Shown here piece by piece: positions 36,080 to 43,876 of a DNA stretch of 64,000 nt (positions are counted from its first letter, which is position 1; every line of letters starts with the position of its first letter). The notes under the pieces were generated by a model that was given only the letters and a program-made list of their open reading frames with translations, did no database searches and had not been told where the DNA came from. The position numbers were made by a program, and so were the translations under genes. This stretch comes from Pseudomonas syringae CC1557 (lineage in GTDB: Bacteria > Pseudomonadota > Gammaproteobacteria > Pseudomonadales > Pseudomonadaceae): contig NZ_CP007014.1 in assembly GCF_000452705.1 (NCBI RefSeq), positions 3,286,001-3,350,000 of the forward strand, written 5' to 3'.

Positions 36080-36095
36080 TTGACGTATACGTAAA
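36080..36095 (+). promoter_or_regulatory. LiuR operator in the liuR-hmgL promoter
   Basis: TTGACGTATACGTAAA is a near-perfect 16-bp dyad. The same dyad occurs before liuA in its perfect form, and both resemble the LiuR motif reported from comparative genomics. TTGACG serves as a -35 box, with TAGGTT (36103-36108) 17 bases on as a possible -10, so the operator overlaps the promoter as is usual for MerR proteins. Confidence 0.8.
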
Positions 36096-36135: not shown

Positions 36136-36528
36136 ATGAGCAGTCACACTTACAGCATTTCCGAGCTCGCACGCGAGCTGGACATCACCACCCGTGCCAT
36201 CCGCTTTTATGAAGAACAAGGCATGCTCAGCCCTGAACGAAAGGGCCTGGAGCGCATTTATTCGGCGCGTGACAAGGTCACCCTGAAATTGATCCTGCGC
36301 GGCAAGCGGATCGGCTTTTCACTGGCCGAATGCAAGGAGCTGATTTCGCTGTACGACCCGAGCGGTGGCAATCAAAAACAATTGCAGACCATGCTCGGAA
36401 AGATCACCGAGCGTCGTGCGCAACTGGAACAGCAATTGCTGGACATCCAGCAGATGCAATTGGAACTGGACACCGCCGAAGAGCGTTGCCGCGCCGAGCT
36501 CGATAAAACCGCCGCCACGTCACACTGA
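36136..36528 (+). CDS. liuR: MerR-family regulator of leucine/isovalerate degradation
   Basis: 130 residues. N-terminal MerR winged HTH (YSISELARELDITTRAIRFYEEQGML, about 6-31) followed by RIYSARDKVTLKLILRGKRIGFSLAECKELI and a C-terminal dimerising coiled coil (about 80-120). No conserved metal-binding cysteine cluster is present, as expected for an acyl-CoA-sensing type. Its place directly upstream of hmgL, with the shared dyad before both liuR and liuA, identifies it as LiuR. It is expected to bind TTTACGTTAACGTAAA-like sites and to be relieved by a leucine catabolite. Confidence 0.9.
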   Translation: MSSHTYSISELARELDITTRAIRFYEEQGMLSPERKGLERIYSARDKVTLKLILRGKRIGFSLAECKELISLYDPSGGNQKQLQTMLGKITERRAQLEQQLLDIQQMQLELDTAEERCRAELDKTAATSH

Positions 36529-36544: not shown

Positions 36545-37444
36545 ATGTCACTCCCGCAAAAAGTGAAAATCGTCGAAGTCGGTCCGCGTGACGGCCTGCA
36601 AAACGAGACACTGCCGATCAGTGTCGAGGCCAAGGTACGCCTGGTCGACGACCTGAGCGCTGCCGGATTTGGCCACATCGAAGCGGGCAGTTTCGTGTCC
36701 GCCAGATGGGTGCCGCAAATGGCGGGCTCGGCCCAGGTACTTGCGCAGATTCAGCGCCGTGAGGGCGTTATTTATTCGGCCCTGACGCCAAATCTCAGGG
36801 GGTTCGAAGATGCGCTGGCAGCCGGCGCTGGAGAAGTCGCAGTCTTCGCCGCAGCAAGTGAAGCATTCTCTCAGCGCAACCTGAACTGCTCGATCAGCGA
36901 AAGCCTGGAGCGCTTTGCACCAATCATGGCGGCTGCCCGCCTGTATGGCTTGCGGGTCCGGGGTTATGTGTCCTGCGTATTGGGTTGCCCTTATGAGGGC
37001 GATGTGGCATCTGAACAGGTCGCCGCGGTTGCCAACGAGCTGCACGCCATGGGCTGTTATGAGATTTCGCTGGGAGACACCATCGGCATCGGCACGCCCG
37101 GAGCCGCCCGCGCCCTCTTCAGCGCTGTGGCGGCACACATTCCACGTGGCAAGCTGGCCGGACACTTTCACGACACCTACGGCCAGGCGCTGGCGAATAT
37201 CTTCGCCAGTCTGGAAGAAGGCATCCAGGTATTCGACAGCTCAGTCGCAGGTCTGGGTGGCTGTCCTTACGCCAAGGGTGCGAGCGGCAATGTCGCCACC
37301 GAAGACGTGCTTTACATGTTGCAAGGGCTGGGTATCGAGACCGGCGTTGATCTTGATCAGGTTATCAAGGCCGGCCAGCGAATTTGCGAAGTGCTGGGAC
37401 GCAGCAATGGCTCGCGCGTAGCCAAAGCCAGGCTGTCAGCCTGA
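36545..37444 (+). CDS. liuE: Hydroxymethylglutaryl-CoA lyase
   Basis: 299 residues, the bacterial HMG-CoA lyase length (also named hmgL or mvaB). TIM barrel of the DRE-TIM family with VGPRDGLQNE (R15, D16) at its start, HFHDTYGQALAN as metal-binding histidines, and catalytic C240 in GLGGCPYAKGASGN. It splits HMG-CoA into acetyl-CoA and acetoacetate, the last step of leucine degradation. It starts 17 bp after the liuR stop, so the two are one transcript. In P. aeruginosa liuE ends the liuABCDE operon; here it is moved to the front and cut off from liuABCD by a small RNA gene. Confidence 0.94.
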   Translation: MSLPQKVKIVEVGPRDGLQNETLPISVEAKVRLVDDLSAAGFGHIEAGSFVSARWVPQMAGSAQVLAQIQRREGVIYSALTPNLRGFEDALAAGAGEVAVFAAASEAFSQRNLNCSISESLERFAPIMAAARLYGLRVRGYVSCVLGCPYEGDVASEQVAAVANELHAMGCYEISLGDTIGIGTPGAARALFSAVAAHIPRGKLAGHFHDTYGQALANIFASLEEGIQVFDSSVAGLGGCPYAKGASGNVATEDVLYMLQGLGIETGVDLDQVIKAGQRICEVLGRSNGSRVAKARLSA

Positions 37445-37460
37445 CAACCGTCACCGGTCG

Positions 37461-37529
37461 GTAACAGGGTGCGACACATTGTCACGGAGTGTTACCCTGA
37501 CCGCGTCCTGTCGAGACAAACGGGTAACA
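37461..37529 (+). promoter_or_regulatory. CbrB-type upstream activator sites
   Basis: Three copies of the GTAACA/TGTTAC element: GTAACA at 37461-37466, TGTTAC at 37490-37495 and GTAACA at 37524-37529. They lie about 110-180 bp upstream of the predicted start of the Crc RNA. CbrB, the NtrC-type activator of crc RNAs, binds such elements upstream of sigma-54 promoters. Pattern-based. Confidence 0.6.
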
Positions 37530-37612
37530 CGGAAACAACCGACAACAGAATCAGACAACCCGATGCACGAAAAAAAACTTCAAATGCCCGGTTTCAGGGG
37601 CTTTGAAAAAAC

Positions 37613-37628
37613 TGGCACGGGTCCTGCT
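37613..37628 (+). promoter_or_regulatory. Sigma-54 (RpoN) promoter of the Crc RNA
   Basis: TGGCACGGGTCCTGCT matches the -24/-12 consensus, with GG (37614-37615) and GC (37626-37627) exactly 10 bases apart. The predicted start is about 12 bases on, near 37639. Confidence 0.85.
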
Positions 37629-37638
37629 ATATTCTTTG

Positions 37639-38022
37639 TACAACAAGAATAAAAGCATGTAGCAACTCAATAAAAACAATACGTATCGACTCTGATATAA
37701 CAAGAACAACACGGACAGAGACGTAGCTAACAGATTTTTTTGGAGTGGACAGCTTTTCTGAACCGCTTGCCTTGGCAGGTCGTTCGCAGCCAGACAGAGA
37801 ACAATAAAACTGCCCCGAGGCAGCCCCCGTACTGGTTGGATCAATGTGATGAAAGTGGCATCAGCGCTCAAAAAAATACGTTTGCTCTTGATCCTGTTTA
37901 GGGATCGCTCAAAAAAGATGTGAAGGGCCAGGTCGCCAAAAACAACAACAGGCCTCCCTACAAACAAAAAAGAGCATAGCAACATACCTTGAAGGGGAGC
38001 CCAGGCTCCCCTTCGTGCTTTC
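37639..38022 (+). ncRNA. crcX: Crc-sequestering small RNA, CrcZ/CrcX/CrcY family
   Basis: A region of about 380 bases with no credible ORF, a sigma-54 promoter with CbrB-like sites and a terminator hairpin. It carries at least six A-rich Hfq/Crc motifs: AACAAGAATAAAA at 37642, CAATAAAAACAAT at 37668, AACAAGAACAACA at 37699, AACAATAAAAC at 37800, AAAAACAACAACA at 37938 and ACAAACAAAAAAG at 37960. Short GC hairpins lie between them (for instance CTGCC/GGCAG near 37810). These RNAs titrate Hfq away from mRNAs to relieve carbon catabolite repression. CrcZ follows cbrB; here the neighbour is the HMG-CoA lyase gene, as for crcY of P. putida, and in P. syringae the second member is crcX. The family is nearly certain; the exact symbol is inferred. 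Confidence 0.85.
37991..38014 (+). terminator. Terminator of the Crc RNA
   Basis: A perfect 10-bp stem GAAGGGGAGC/GCTCCCCTTC (37991-38000 with 38005-38014) and CCAG loop, followed by GTGCTTT. The T-run is short, but the hairpin is very stable. Confidence 0.75.
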
Positions 38023-38075
38023 CGGGATTTGACAGACTTTCATTGTGCCGGCCCTCCACGCTCAGCGTTATACAC

Positions 38076-38118
38076 GCGCCTTCCTGGGCGCGAGCCGGGT
38101 GACGCTTCGCCTGCTCGC
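38076..38118. repeat. REP-like imperfect hairpin element
   Basis: Two nested dyads, GCGCC/GGCGC (38076-38080 with 38087-38091) and GCGAGCCGG/CCTGCTCGC (38090-38098 with 38110-38118, one mismatch). The GCTCGCGAAG part resembles Pseudomonas intergenic REP repeats. Only one copy is seen in this window. Confidence 0.35.
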
Positions 38119-38205
38119 GAAGAGGCTGGTACACACCGCCGCTGTCGCAACCTCCTGAAGCTCTTACAGCGCTTAAACAGAACGTTGACAGTCCACACCC
38201 GCAGG

Positions 38206-38221
38206 TTTACGTTAACGTAAA
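38206..38221 (+). promoter_or_regulatory. LiuR operator of liuABCD
   Basis: TTTACGTTAACGTAAA is a perfect 16-bp palindrome about 55 bp before liuA. It shares its core with the liuR operator at 36080. A consensus -35 TTGACA lies at 38185-38190, so LiuR bound here would cover the -10 region. Confidence 0.85.
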
Positions 38222-38251
38222 GGTAATAGCCGATCGTTCAGAACGACATCC

Positions 38252-38266
38252 AAGAATAAAACAGGA
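38252..38266 (+). promoter_or_regulatory. Crc/Hfq-type motif next to the liuA ribosome binding site
   Basis: AAGAATAA (38252-38259) matches AANAANAA exactly and lies 3 bases before the Shine-Dalgarno AGGA (38263-38266). Hfq with Crc bound here would block ribosome entry on liuA. Function inferred. Confidence 0.6.
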
Positions 38267-38275
38267 ACGCTGCCC

Positions 38276-39439
38276 ATGAGTTACCCCAGCCTTAACTTCG
38301 CCTTGGGCGAAACCATCGACATGCTGTGCGATCAGTTGCAATCGTTCGTCGCCGCAGAGCTCTCCCCTCGCGCCGCGCAGATTGACAAGGACAACCTGTT
38401 CCCGGCCGACATGTGGCGCAAATTCGGTGAGATGGGCGTGCTCGGCATCACTGTCAGCGAGGAATATGGCGGCGCGGGTCTCGGGTATCTGGCGCATGTG
38501 GTAGCCATGGAAGAGATCAGTCGTGGCTCGGCGTCGGTGGCGCTGTCCTACGGCGCGCACTCTAACCTCTGCGTCAATCAGATCAACCGCAACGGCAACC
38601 CCGAACAGAAAGCCCGTTACCTGCCCAGGCTGATCAGCGGCGAGCACGTTGGCGCACTGGCCATGAGCGAACCCAATGCCGGCTCGGATGTGGTGTCGAT
38701 GAAGCTGCGGGCCGACAAGCGCGGCGACCGTTACATCCTCAATGGCAGCAAAACCTGGATCACCAACGGGCCGGACGCCAACACGTACGTGATCTACGCC
38801 AAGACCGACGTGGAGAAAGCAGCACATGGCATCAGCGCGTTCATCGTCGAACGCGACTGGAAAGGATTTTCTCGCGGCAGCAAGTTCGACAAGCTTGGCA
38901 TGCGCGGCTCCAACACCTGCGAACTGTTCTTCGACGATGTAGAAGTGCCGGAAGAGAACCTGCTGGGCGTGCTCGACGGCGGCGTACGGGTATTGATGAG
39001 TGGCCTGGATTACGAGCGCGTGGTCCTCTCCGGCGGGCCAACCGGGATCATGCAGGCCTGCATGGACGTGGTCGTCCCCTACATTCATGACCGCAAGCAG
39101 TTCGGCCAGAGTATCGGCGAGTTTCAGCTGATTCAGGGCAAGGTTGCCGACATGTACACCCAACTCAATGCCAGCCGAGCTTATCTGTACGCCGTCGCCC
39201 AAGCCTGTGATCGTGGCGAAACCACGCGCAAGGATGCAGCAGGCGTGATCCTGTACAGCGCCGAGCGGGCGACCCAGATGGCGCTGGATGCCATTCAGAT
39301 TCTCGGCGGCAATGGCTACATCAACGAGTTTCCGGCCGGTCGACTGTTACGCGATGCCAAGCTCTACGAGATCGGCGCAGGCACCAGCGAAATCCGCCGC
39401 ATGCTCATTGGTCGCGAACTGTTCAACGAAACCCGTTGA
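38276..39439 (+). CDS. liuA: Isovaleryl-CoA dehydrogenase
   Basis: 387 residues, typical length. It oxidises isovaleryl-CoA to 3-methylcrotonyl-CoA with FAD and electron-transfer flavoprotein. Visible are [14 protein letters not shown] and [15 protein letters not shown] (FAD/substrate contacts), catalytic glutamate E247 in [13 protein letters not shown] at the isovaleryl-specific position, and [34 protein letters not shown] at the C-terminus. First gene of liuABCD, with a LiuR palindrome and a Crc motif in its leader. Confidence 0.96.
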
Positions 39440-39452
39440 TTCCGGAGTCCTC

Positions 39453-41060
39453 ATGGCCATCCTGCACACCCGAATCAATCCGCGCTCCACAGAGTTTTCG
39501 CTCAACCATGCCGCGCTGCTGCAACAGGTCGAAGCCTTGCGCAGCCTATTGAACAACGTCCGCCAGGGCGGCGGGCCAAAAGCCCAGGAACGCCACACTT
39601 CGCGAGGCAAGTTGCTGCCGCGTGAGCGTATCAAGCGCTTGCTGGACACGGGCTCGCCGTTTCTGGAAATCGGCCAGTTGGCCGCGCACGACGTGTATGG
39701 CGAAGACGTCCCGGCTGCTGGGGTAATTGTCGGCATCGGCCGCGTCGAAGGCGTTGAATGCATGATCATTGCCAATGACGCCACAGTCAAAGGCGGTTCC
39801 TATTACCCGCTGACCGTCAAAAAACACCTGCGTGCGCAGACCATCGCCCAGCAGAATCGCCTGCCGTGCATCTATCTGGTGGACTCCGGCGGCGCCAACC
39901 TGCCGCGTCAGGACGAGGTGTTTCCGGATCGCGAACACTTCGGGCGCATCTTCTTCAATCAGGCCAACATGAGCGCCCAGGGCATTGCCCAGATTGCCGT
40001 GGTCATGGGCTCCTGCACCGCAGGCGGGGCCTATGTACCGGCCATGGCCGACGAAGCGATCATGGTGCGCAAGCAAGCGACGATCTTTCTCGCCGGGCCG
40101 CCGCTGGTCAAAGCCGCCACCGGCGAGGTAGTGAGCGCCGAGGACCTGGGCGGTGCCGACGTGCATTGCCGCACGTCCGGGGTGGCCGATCATTACGCAG
40201 AAAGCGACGAGCACGCACTGGCGCTGGCACGACGCAGTGTCGCCAACCTCAACTGGCGCAAGCAGGGTCAGTTGAACGTCATCGCCCCCATCGCTCCGCT
40301 GTACGCCAGTGACGAGCTGTACGGCATTATTCCGACCGACAGCAAGCAGCCGTTTGACGTGCGGGAAATCATCGCCCGGCTGGTGGACGGTTCGGTATTC
40401 GATGAATTCAAGGCGCTGTTCGGCACCACGCTGGTCTGCGGTTTTGCTCATCTGCACGGTTACCCGATCGCCATTCTGGCCAACAATGGCATCCTGTTCG
40501 CCGAGGCCGCTCAAAAAGGCGCGCATTTCATCGAGCTGGCGTGCCAGCGCGGGATTCCACTGCTGTTCCTGCAGAACATCACTGGTTTCATGGTTGGTCA
40601 GAAGTACGAAGCGGGTGGCATCGCCAAGCATGGCGCCAAGCTGGTGACCGCAGTGGCCTGCGCCAGAGTACCGAAATTCACGGTAATCATCGGCGGCAGT
40701 TTCGGGGCCGGCAACTACGGCATGTGCGGCCGCGCTTACGACCCGCGTTTTCTGTGGATGTGGCCCAACGCGCGAATCGGCGTGATGGGCGGCGAGCAGG
40801 CGGCGGGCGTGCTGGTGCAGGTCAAGTGCGAACAGGCCGAACGCGCCGGCCAGGCCTTCAGCCCGCAGCAGCAGGCCGAGTTGAAACAGCCGATCCTCGA
40901 TCAGTATGAACATCAGGGCCATCCGTATTACTCCAGCGCCCGGCTGTGGGACGACGGCGTCATCGACCCGGCACAGACCCGCGAGATCCTGGCACTCGCC
41001 CTCTCCGCTTCGCTCAATGCGCCTATCGAACCCACTACCTTCGGCCTGTTCCGCATGTAA
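39453..41060 (+). CDS. liuB: 3-methylcrotonyl-CoA carboxylase, carboxyltransferase (beta) subunit
   Basis: 535 residues from the ATG at 39453, with CGGAG upstream. Two crotonase-fold carboxyltransferase halves: N-terminal (about 55-285, with [20 protein letters not shown]) and C-terminal (about 300-530, with [19 protein letters not shown] and [10 protein letters not shown]). It passes the carboxyl group from carboxybiotin of the LiuD subunit to 3-methylcrotonyl-CoA. Sits 13 bp after liuA. Confidence 0.96.
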
Positions 41061-41075
41061 GCGGGGAAAATAACC

Positions 41076-41930
41076 ATGACCTCATTCGTCACCATAGAAC
41101 TGCTCGAAGACCCGCGAGGTTTCGCCACACTCTGGCTGAACCGTGCGGACAAGAACAATGCATTCAATGCGCATATGATTCGTGAATTGATCATTGCGCT
41201 GGACCAGGTACAAGCCAATTCCAGCCTGCGTTTTTTGCTGCTCCGTGGCCGCGGCCGACACTTCAGTGCCGGGGCTGATCTGACCTGGATGCAGCAGGCC
41301 GCCGACCTGGATTACAACACCAACCTGGACGATGCACGCGAGCTGGCCGAGCTGATGTACAACCTCGCCAGATTGAAGCTGCCCACTCTGGCCGTGGTGC
41401 AGGGCGCGGCGTTTGGCGGTGCGCTGGGCCTGATCAGTTGCTGTGACATGGCCATCGCAGCCGAAAACGCACAGTTTTGCCTGTCCGAGGTGCGCATCGG
41501 CCTTGCCCCGGCGGTTATAAGCCCGTTCGTGGTTCAGGCCATTGGGGAACGCGCAGCACGACGTTATGCACTGACCGCAGAGCGCTTCGACGGCCAGCGC
41601 GCACAACAAATCGGCCTGATCGCCGAGTGCTACGCGGACACCGAGCTGGAGACCCGAACACTTGAATGGATCGAGAACCTGCTGCTCAACAGCCCGCAGG
41701 CCATGCGCGTCAGCAAGGAATTGCTGCGTGAAGTGGGCAGCGGCGAATTGACGCCTGCGTTGCGTCGTTACTGCGAAAACGCCATTGCGCGCATCCGCAC
41801 CAGCGCCGAAGGCCAGGAAGGCCTGCGCGCCTTTCTGCAAAAGCGCGCGCCGGGCTGGCAACGTCTGTCGGATGAGCATCCTGGCGAACGCTCTGCCCTG
41901 ACCGAAACACACAAGGATTCGCAACCATGA
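41076..41930 (+). CDS. liuC: Methylglutaconyl-CoA hydratase (crotonase family)
   Basis: 284 residues. The crotonase oxyanion-hole stretches are HFSAGADLTWM (about 65-75) and GAAFGGALGLISCCDMAIA (about 110-128), with the general base region CLSEVRIGLAPAVISP. It hydrates 3-methylglutaconyl-CoA to HMG-CoA. Its last codons overlap the liuD start by 4 bp. A tail of about 20 residues after the normal crotonase end (HPGERSALTETHKDSQP) is unusual but in keeping with LiuC-like proteins. Confidence 0.93.
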   Translation: MTSFVTIELLEDPRGFATLWLNRADKNNAFNAHMIRELIIALDQVQANSSLRFLLLRGRGRHFSAGADLTWMQQAADLDYNTNLDDARELAELMYNLARLKLPTLAVVQGAAFGGALGLISCCDMAIAAENAQFCLSEVRIGLAPAVISPFVVQAIGERAARRYALTAERFDGQRAQQIGLIAECYADTELETRTLEWIENLLLNSPQAMRVSKELLREVGSGELTPALRRYCENAIARIRTSAEGQEGLRAFLQKRAPGWQRLSDEHPGERSALTETHKDSQP

Positions 41931-43876
41931 GTACGCCAGAGCTGAACACGCTGCTGATCGCCAATCGGGGTGAAATAGCCTGTCGCATCATGCGCAGCGC
42001 CAAAAAGATGGGGCTGACCACGGTTGCAGTGCACAGCGCCATTGACCGGGATGCACGTCACAGCCGTGAAGCGGATGTCTGCGTGGATCTGGGGGGAAGC
42101 AAGGCATCTGACAACTACCTGATGATCGACAAGCTGATAGACGCCGCATTGGCCAGCGGTGCCCAGGCGATCCATCCCGGTTATGGTTTTCTGTCCGAAA
42201 ATGCTGACTTCGCGCAGGCCATTGAAGACGCCGGGCTGATTTTTCTCGGCCCGCCCGCCTCGGCCATCAATGCCATGGGCAGCAAATCCGCAGCAAAATC
42301 GCTGATGGAATACGCTGGCGTGCCGTTGGTGCCGGGCTATCACGGTGCCGCGCAGGATATCGAAACATTCGCTGCAGCGGCCGAAAGCATTGGCTATCCG
42401 GTATTGCTGAAGGCGACCGCTGGCGGCGGTGGCAAAGGTATGAAAGTGGTCGACCAGGCCAGCGAACTGACCGAAGCGCTGGCGTCCGCTCAGCGTGAGG
42501 CGCAGTCGTCGTTCGGCGATGCGCGAATGCTGGTGGAAAAATATGTATTGTCGCCGCGCCATGTCGAGATTCAGGTGTTTGCCGATCAGCACGGTCATTG
42601 CCTGTACCTCAACGAACGCGACTGCTCGATTCAGCGTCGCCACCAGAAAGTGGTCGAAGAAGCGCCCGCACCGGGCCTGACGCCTGAACTGCGCCGAGCA
42701 ATGGGCGAAGCGGCAGTCAAGGCGGCACAGGCGATTGGCTACGTGGGCGCAGGTACTGTGGAGTTCCTGCTCGACGCACGCGGCGAGTTTTTCTTCATGG
42801 AAATGAACACCCGCCTGCAAGTCGAACACCCGGTGACCGAATACATCACGGGGCTGGATCTGGTCGAGTGGCAGATACGCGTGGCGCGCGGTGAACACCT
42901 GCCGATCACTCAGGAGCAGGTTCCGCTGATCGGGCATGCCATCGAAGTACGGCTTTACGCCGAAGACCCGGCCAACGACTTCCTGCCAGCGACCGGGACG
43001 CTGAATCTGTATCGCGAGCCCGCCCATGGCGTTGGCAGGCGTGTGGACAGCGGCGTGGCCGAGGGTGACAGCGTTTCACCCTTTTACGACCCGATGCTCG
43101 GCAAGCTGATCGCCTGGGGCGAGACGCGCGAAGAGGCGCGTCTCCGACTGCTGGGCATGCTCGATGAGTTCGCCGTGGGCGGCGTCAGGACCAACCTCGC
43201 GTTCCTGCGGCGCATCATCGCCCATCCGGCATTTGCCGCCGCTGAACTGGACACCGGTTTCATCCCGCGCCATCAGTCACACCTGCTGCCTGAAACCGCC
43301 GAGCCTACAGAGGCGTTCTGGCAGGCGGCTGCCGAAGCGTTCAGCCAAAGCGAACCGACGCGCATCAGTCCGTCCGACCCGCACTCACCCTGGTCGGCCA
43401 CGAACGGCTTCCGTGCAGGAATGCCAGCAGAGACCGATCTGCAATTAAGTTGCAGCGGCCAGACCCGAGCCGTCCGCCTGCACAACAGCAACGCATCATT
43501 GTTCAGGCTGGATGGGGAGCAGTTGCGCATTGATTGCAATGGGGTGCGCCATCAGCATCTGGCGATCAGACGCGGCAGTACGCTTTATCTCAAATGGCAG
43601 GGCGATCTGCACACCATCGTTCAAGCCGACCCGATTGCCCAGGCCGAGCCAGGTCATGATCAGCAAGGCAGCCTGATTGCACCCATGAATGGCAGCATCG
43701 TGCGCGTGCTGGTCGAGGTGGGACAGACCGTCGACGCCGGCGCGCAACTGGTCGTGCTGGAGGCGATGAAGATGGAGCACAGTATCCGCGCAGCCAGCAC
43801 AGGGGTGATCACCGCGTTGTACTGCCGCGAGGGCGAGATGGTCAATGAAGGCGCGGTGCTGGTGGAGATGAGCTGA
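41927..43876 (+). CDS. liuD: 3-methylcrotonyl-CoA carboxylase, biotin-containing (alpha) subunit
   Basis: 649 residues. Biotin carboxylase N-domain (about 8-118), ATP-grasp (about 120-320, with KATAGGGGKGMK and FMEMNTRLQVEHPVTE), a C-terminal biotin-carboxylase domain, a BT linker domain, and a biotinyl domain at the end with EAMKMEH, biotinyl lysine K615. It carboxylates its own biotin with bicarbonate and ATP for LiuB. Last gene of liuABCD. Confidence 0.96.
   Translation: MSTPELNTLLIANRGEIACRIMRSAKKMGLTTVAVHSAIDRDARHSREADVCVDLGGSKASDNYLMIDKLIDAALASGAQAIHPGYGFLSENADFAQAIEDAGLIFLGPPASAINAMGSKSAAKSLMEYAGVPLVPGYHGAAQDIETFAAAAESIGYPVLLKATAGGGGKGMKVVDQASELTEALASAQREAQSSFGDARMLVEKYVLSPRHVEIQVFADQHGHCLYLNERDCSIQRRHQKVVEEAPAPGLTPELRRAMGEAAVKAAQAIGYVGAGTVEFLLDARGEFFFMEMNTRLQVEHPVTEYITGLDLVEWQIRVARGEHLPITQEQVPLIGHAIEVRLYAEDPANDFLPATGTLNLYREPAHGVGRRVDSGVAEGDSVSPFYDPMLGKLIAWGETREEARLRLLGMLDEFAVGGVRTNLAFLRRIIAHPAFAAAELDTGFIPRHQSHLLPETAEPTEAFWQAAAEAFSQSEPTRISPSDPHSPWSATNGFRAGMPAETDLQLSCSGQTRAVRLHNSNASLFRLDGEQLRIDCNGVRHQHLAIRRGSTLYLKWQGDLHTIVQADPIAQAEPGHDQQGSLIAPMNGSIVRVLVEVGQTVDAGAQLVVLEAMKMEHSIRAASTGVITALYCREGEMVNEGAVLVEMS

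Follow-up and report, generated by a model that had tools for sequence, protein, structure and literature searches.

An RNA of the CrcZ/CrcY/CrcX family is encoded in the window, the whole stretch of 64,000 nucleotides of Pseudomonas syringae CC1557 DNA that was analysed, and we identify its locus, with a probability of about 0.95, as crcY, an orthologue of P. putida crcY that encodes an ordinary CrcY regulatory RNA. The Rfam model CrcZ (RF01675) matches positions 37640-38046 of the plus strand from end to end (model positions 1-398 of 398), with 317.8 bits for a gathering score of 95, and this is the sole Rfam match at or above the gathering scores within the 64-kb window. The sequence-only reading, made from the letters of the DNA, had claimed a Crc-family small RNA here and had proposed a covariance search; the full-length match bears this claim out. 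The RNA family, its control by CbrB and RpoN and the P. putida mvaB linkage are already in print, and CrcZ, CrcY and CrcX are all reported in P. syringae (PMC6296734; PMC8871633). What is added here is modest: the crcY subtype, its tie to the liuR-liuE gene order, and a LiuR-like operator and an Hfq/Crc-type site before liuA. A literature search returned no paper pairing CrcY with liuE, for which mvaB is an alternative name. The features of the locus are as follows.

36080..36095, plus strand: LiuR-like operator TTGACGTATACGTAAA before liuR.
36136..36528, plus strand: liuR, MerR-family regulator (Pfam MerR_1 and MerR-DNA-bind; named by position).
36545..37444, plus strand: liuE/mvaB, HMG-CoA lyase (NF004283, 485.3 bits, cut-off 246).
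37461..37466, plus strand: GTAACA, extra upstream CbrB-like subsite (exact; at about -179, partly conserved).
37490..37495, plus strand: TGTTAC, CbrB-like subsite (exact; at -150, conserved in most crcY promoters).
37524..37529, plus strand: GTAACA, CbrB-like subsite (exact; at -116, conserved in most crcY promoters).
37613..37629, plus strand: putative sigma-54 promoter (GG-N10-GC), TGGCACGGGTCCTGCTA, from the sequence, with GG at -26.
37640..38046, plus strand: crcY small RNA, as delimited by its match to Rfam RF01675.
37642..37970, plus strand: six A-rich AANAANAA Hfq/Crc-type clusters from a motif scan (37642-37652, 37669-37679, 37699-37709, 37800-37807, 37938-37948 and 37963-37970).
37992..38013, plus strand: closing G+C-rich hairpin, from the sequence.
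38185..38213, plus strand: putative liuA sigma-70 promoter, TTGACA-N17-TACGTT, overlapping the LiuR-like operator.
38206..38221, plus strand: LiuR-like operator TTTACGTTAACGTAAA before liuA.
38252..38259, plus strand: A-rich Hfq/Crc-type site AAGAATAA, at -24 of liuA.
38276..39439, plus strand: liuA, acyl-CoA dehydrogenase (Pfam acyl-CoA dehydrogenase domains; isovaleryl-CoA dehydrogenase by position).
39453..43876, plus strand: liuB, liuC and liuD (named by position).

The 5.81-Mb genome contains three RF01675 matches over the cut-off (352.7, 317.8 and 304.6 bits), so that this Pseudomonas is confirmed to have three RNAs of the CrcZ family, with each copy told apart. One copy (L001) lies between cbrB and pcnB and is crcZ; the window copy, between liuE (mvaB) and liuA, does not hold that position. 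Another (L003) lies between an opposite-strand choline-type ABC binding protein gene and a gene without a Pfam or NCBIfam match, and holds the crcX-type position, as given by a working definition made here (a choX/hydX-linked position together with the tree group) that differs in origin from the published one; the window copy falls outside this definition. Its own place, after mvaB/liuE, is the one that marks the crcY subtype. P. putida makes a longer PP3539-mvaB-crcY transcript that is then processed, as stated in the Azotobacter paper (PMC6292655), and because its position matches that of this transcript we name the window copy crcY; like CrcY of P. putida KT2440, it follows the HMG-CoA lyase gene (PMC6292655). 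The earlier proposal of a crcX/crcY type is thus upheld and, through position and tree, narrowed to crcY.

The tree was built from 104 copies (the three of this genome, those of ten named loci, those of the loci from L114 on, and all crcZ-type copies), with identical sequences and rows under 300 nt left out. The crcZ copies form one separate group (100/100), the window copy lies inside a group of nine liuE-linked rows (100/100), and L003 groups with most of the choX/hydX-linked copies. The window copy shares with CrcZ (cbrB-crcZ-pcnB) the Rfam family, the promoter type and the number of A-rich clusters, but differs in locus and tree group, whereas the crcX-type L003 is of the same family and on the crcY side of the tree, but has different neighbours and mostly its own tree group. 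In a review, the P. syringae RNAs that depend on RpoN and CbrB are given as crcZ and crcX (PMC8657755), and the liu-linked copy of P. syringae relatives may have been published as crcX, which would then be the right name. We consider this improbable, since the position is that of P. putida mvaB-crcY (PMC6292655) and the tree joins the window copy, and not L003, to the liuE-linked copies.

Within the tree, the crcX-type rows are nested in the crcY side, where they join the syringae-type crcY at 100/98, and the putida-type and fluorescens-type crcY fall outside this grouping. Because of this nesting, the tree suggests that crcX is likely a later duplicate of crcY, short of proof given a midpoint root, a bootstrap that had not settled, a program warning of long branches (L131, L049, L167 and L118) and two crcX-placed rows (L161 and L180) that group with crcY rows. 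The crcY of one record titled P. viridiflava (L011) groups with P. paralactis (100/100) and not with the syringae type, and this isolate is possibly mislabelled.

The RNA itself carries the sites expected of a Crc-family member. Six AANAANAA clusters occur in 37640-38022, for a shuffle mean of 0.82, and none of 2000 shuffles reached six, in agreement with the earlier count of at least six A-rich Hfq/Crc motifs. The stricter form AAYAAYAA fits only two of the six clusters, a number reached by 13 of 2000 shuffles. When both strands were scanned in 383-nt windows with a step of 50, all those with more than two clusters overlapped the crcY locus. The number is conserved: of 77 crcY-type rows, 72 have six clusters, four have five and one has seven. 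The claim that about 380 bases are free of open reading frames holds for the plus strand, where the ORF list contains none of at least 100 aa within the RNA, but not for the other, where an antisense frame of 144 aa is present (37551-37985, minus strand). We rejected this frame as a protein gene because relatives do not preserve its length: across 11 close copies, the longest stretch of the RNA that is open in the antisense direction ranges between 72 and 134 codons, as expected of a by-product of an A-rich RNA.

The closing hairpin that had been described was located at 37992-38013, and the RNA probably ends near 38013-38025. No clean T run follows the hairpin, and a terminator scan of the plus strand listed nothing there. 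Since the crcZ and crcX-type copies of this genome and the other copies inspected (22 rows) end in a similar hairpin and tail, a closing hairpin without a canonical T run looks like a trait of the family.

Upstream, the elements that the sequence-only reading had named were all recovered, namely the GG-N10-GC box, here a putative sigma-54 promoter, and three exact GTAACA/TGTTAC elements. The latter, starting at 37461, 37490 and 37524, are the only trio within 70 nt among 13 exact copies across the window, and two or more subsites occurred in 0 of 200000 random 70-mer draws (starts 37381-37539 skipped). An alignment of 15 promoters shows the -150 and -116 subsites conserved in most and the 37461 subsite in some. 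By their sequence, the -150 and -116 elements would qualify as CbrB subsites, short of the full F1/R1/R2 layout. In P. putida, CbrB activates crcZ and crcY through sigma-54 promoters, and its subsites have been mapped in both (PMC6296734). The conserved pair here is 34 nt apart, more than the 20-25 bp between neighbouring subsites in the published description (PMC6296734), which counts against the crcY reading. P. putida crcY is also assisted by IHF (PMC6296734). Among nine promoters scanned, an IHF-like site was exact in L006, L010 and L016 and had one mismatch in L003 and L009, and the window promoter, L004, L005 and L001 showed none even when one mismatch was allowed; its absence from the window promoter is a point against control like that of P. 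putida crcY. An ANR box like the one reported in the P. ogarae F113 crcY promoter (PMC12552145) was not found in five promoters (L001-L005).

Both promoter elements are widely kept in the family. In counts that include the window itself, near-identical species and two copies twice (overlapping loci L150/L158), GG-N10-GC lies at -18 to -36 in 77 of 77 crcY-type rows and at least two exact CbrB subsites are present in 71 of them; the corresponding numbers are 35 and 35 of 35 for crcZ-type rows, 24 and 23 of 24 for crcX-type rows, and 6 and 5 of 7 for rows outside the neighbour classes.

With three copies in the genome, one is dispensable, and a broken copy is known in another genome (G082), so the window RNA might be a decayed or inactive copy. 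This is very improbable for a full-length match with an intact promoter box, all six sites and conservation in relatives.

To place the locus among other gene orders, we used the named loci that a liuE search had returned, namely the best 80 of at least 592 confirmed, which reach well beyond Pseudomonas. In 26 of them liuR ends at most 800 nt before liuE, and a Crc RNA follows liuE in all 26; in 48, liuD precedes liuE, and in six neither gene is found there. Searches with nhmmer (three queries) found no Crc RNA after liuE in any of the other 54 named loci, nor did scanning 11 loci from the 48 with liuD before liuE against Rfam. The earlier statement that the RNA splits liuR-liuE from liuABCD is thus right as geography, but the arrangement is not peculiar to this DNA. 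From this clean division, crcY seems to have travelled with the rearranged leucine cluster. Because the 80 loci share ancestry, this link is a correlation with few independent events, and some observations run counter to a strict link: nine Crc RNA rows lie outside the neighbour classes, several of which group with crcY in the tree, and one Azotobacter liuE locus (L047) showed no Crc RNA, in a genus where crcY is reported for A. vinelandii (PMC6292655). Among the matches listed, the named liuE genes of P. alliivorans (87%) and P. asturiensis (86%) come closest. Searched against plasmids, 36600-38800 gave 69 matching records, and among the 20 matches listed only part of liuA was covered.

The cluster around crcY was assigned mostly by position. 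NCBIfam identifies the middle gene, liuC, as a gamma-carboxygeranoyl-CoA hydratase (525.6 bits, cut-off 426) and the others as carboxylase parts, and liuR has no NCBIfam model above the cut-off. The 16-mer TTNACGTNNACGTNAA, which we take to be the LiuR-type pattern, occurs twice on the plus strand of the window, before liuR (36080) and before liuA (38206). Across the named loci, counting the liuR genes whose locus extends more than 200 nt before them, it precedes 26 of 28, and the two liuR genes lacking it (L038 and L039) are both outside the liuR-liuE order. The LiuR-like operator is found before liuA in 34 of 34 leaders of Crc-RNA loci (L150/L158 counted twice) versus 0 of 28 of those without a Crc RNA; in many of these 28 loci liuR precedes liuA. 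The putative sigma-70 promoter is not listed by the promoter scan, and its TTGACA lies 17-18 nt before the LiuR-like operator in 21 of 25 rows.

The liuA leader also carries the A-rich Hfq/Crc-type site, and none was found between -40 and +20 of the other five liu genes. Such a site occurs at most 60 nt before liuA in 27 of 34 Crc-RNA loci versus 13 of 28 loci without a Crc RNA, and because these 13 carry one, it does not set crcY loci apart. The P. aeruginosa genes liuA, liuB, liuC and liuR act as Crc targets (PMC6235884), and a review describes CrcZ as relieving Crc/Hfq on liu mRNAs (PMC8871633).

Spacing raises another reading, in which the sigma-54 transcript would continue into liuA and the RNA would also serve the leucine operon as a CbrB-dependent leader. 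liuA starts 229 nt past the Rfam match and 262 nt past the hairpin, the T run between crcY and liuA is weak, and the same review notes that P. aeruginosa LiuD expression needs CbrB and that liuRABCDE is suspected of having a sigma-N promoter (PMC8871633). Against this, a TTGACA and a LiuR-like operator of its own precede liuA, with the conservation given above, and the crcZ and crcX-type copies also end in a like hairpin without a T run. The distance also varies: of the 26 named crcY loci, those of P. asturiensis, P. alliivorans and P. capsici have liuA 110-117 nt past the end of the match and nine have it 1.8-2.2 kb past that end, and liuA was not seen in the fetched flank of 14, so that it is at least 1.8 kb off or not seen in 23 of 26. 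We therefore regard a transcript shared with liuA as unlikely. The putida-type crcY loci, compared instead of the KT2440 record, share the sigma-54 box, the CbrB subsites and the A-rich clusters with the window; whereas liuA directly follows crcY here, none was seen in their downstream flank (about 5.4 kb; 0.6 kb in L028). A repeat-like inverted sequence, seen by eye at 38080-38130 between crcY and liuA, is absent from the corresponding gap of P. alliivorans (L005).

The partner genes are present in the genome, namely hfq and rpoN together with genes like crc, cbrA and cbrB. Among PDB entries, the Crc-like gene (L205) matches 2myi best (516.5 bits; deposited as exodeoxyribonuclease III), followed by 4jg3, catabolite repression control protein (476.8 bits); a pyrE-like ORF, recognised by eye, adjoins it. 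CbrB was recognised through its sigma-54 activator domain, and the 984-aa ORF before the cbrB-like gene was taken as CbrA by eye only. The window contains a nuclease-like gene of Pfam PF03372 (31206-32135, L201), about 5.5 kb from crcY, which we rejected as crc: it belongs to the Crc fold family, but L205 is taken as Crc.

In relatives, CrcZ, CrcY and CrcX are described as sequestering Hfq and Crc, and by analogy we infer transcription of the window RNA, its dependence on CbrB and RpoN, the sequestration of Hfq/Crc and an effect on liuA. When the preferred carbon source is gone, phosphorylated CbrB would bind the TGTTAC/GTAACA subsites and activate the sigma-54 promoter; the RNA, about 380 nt long, would offer its six A-rich sites to Hfq and Crc, and once these are soaked up, target mRNAs would be freed from repression. 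The adjacent liuA, with the same kind of site at -24, is a likely local target.

A self-contained leucine feed-forward loop in the syringae-type cluster is speculation to which we give an outside chance. In such a loop, lifting of LiuR repression would drive liuR-liuE, read-through from liuR-liuE and processing would yield extra CrcY besides the CbrB-driven RNA, and CrcY would release the adjoining liuA mRNA from Hfq/Crc. Leucine supply would then be an input to the switch of global carbon repression, and this would be why crcY goes with the rearranged liuR-liuE order. For P. putida a leucine signal is spoken against, because the upstream promoters of PP3539-mvaB-crcY are described as constitutive (PMC6292655).

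At the scale of the genus, 296 of 298 genomes contain at least one RF01675 match, and the two without one are 73 and 77% complete. From our reading of the table, most genomes carry two matches and 31 besides this one carry at least three; copies were taken from 28 of these 31 (G051, G252 and G287 left out). Copy number varies further in a few genomes. The broken copy of G082 (L140/L141) consists of two adjoining partial matches (87.4 and 51.3 bits) among four matches in that genome. G151 has four full-length Crc RNA copies (L144, L151, L160 and L169), three of which cluster on the crcY side, two of these without liuE within 700 nt upstream. G086 has a tandem pair of Crc RNA copies between liuE and liuA (L150, 1503-2550) and a third copy between cbrB and pcnB (L167).
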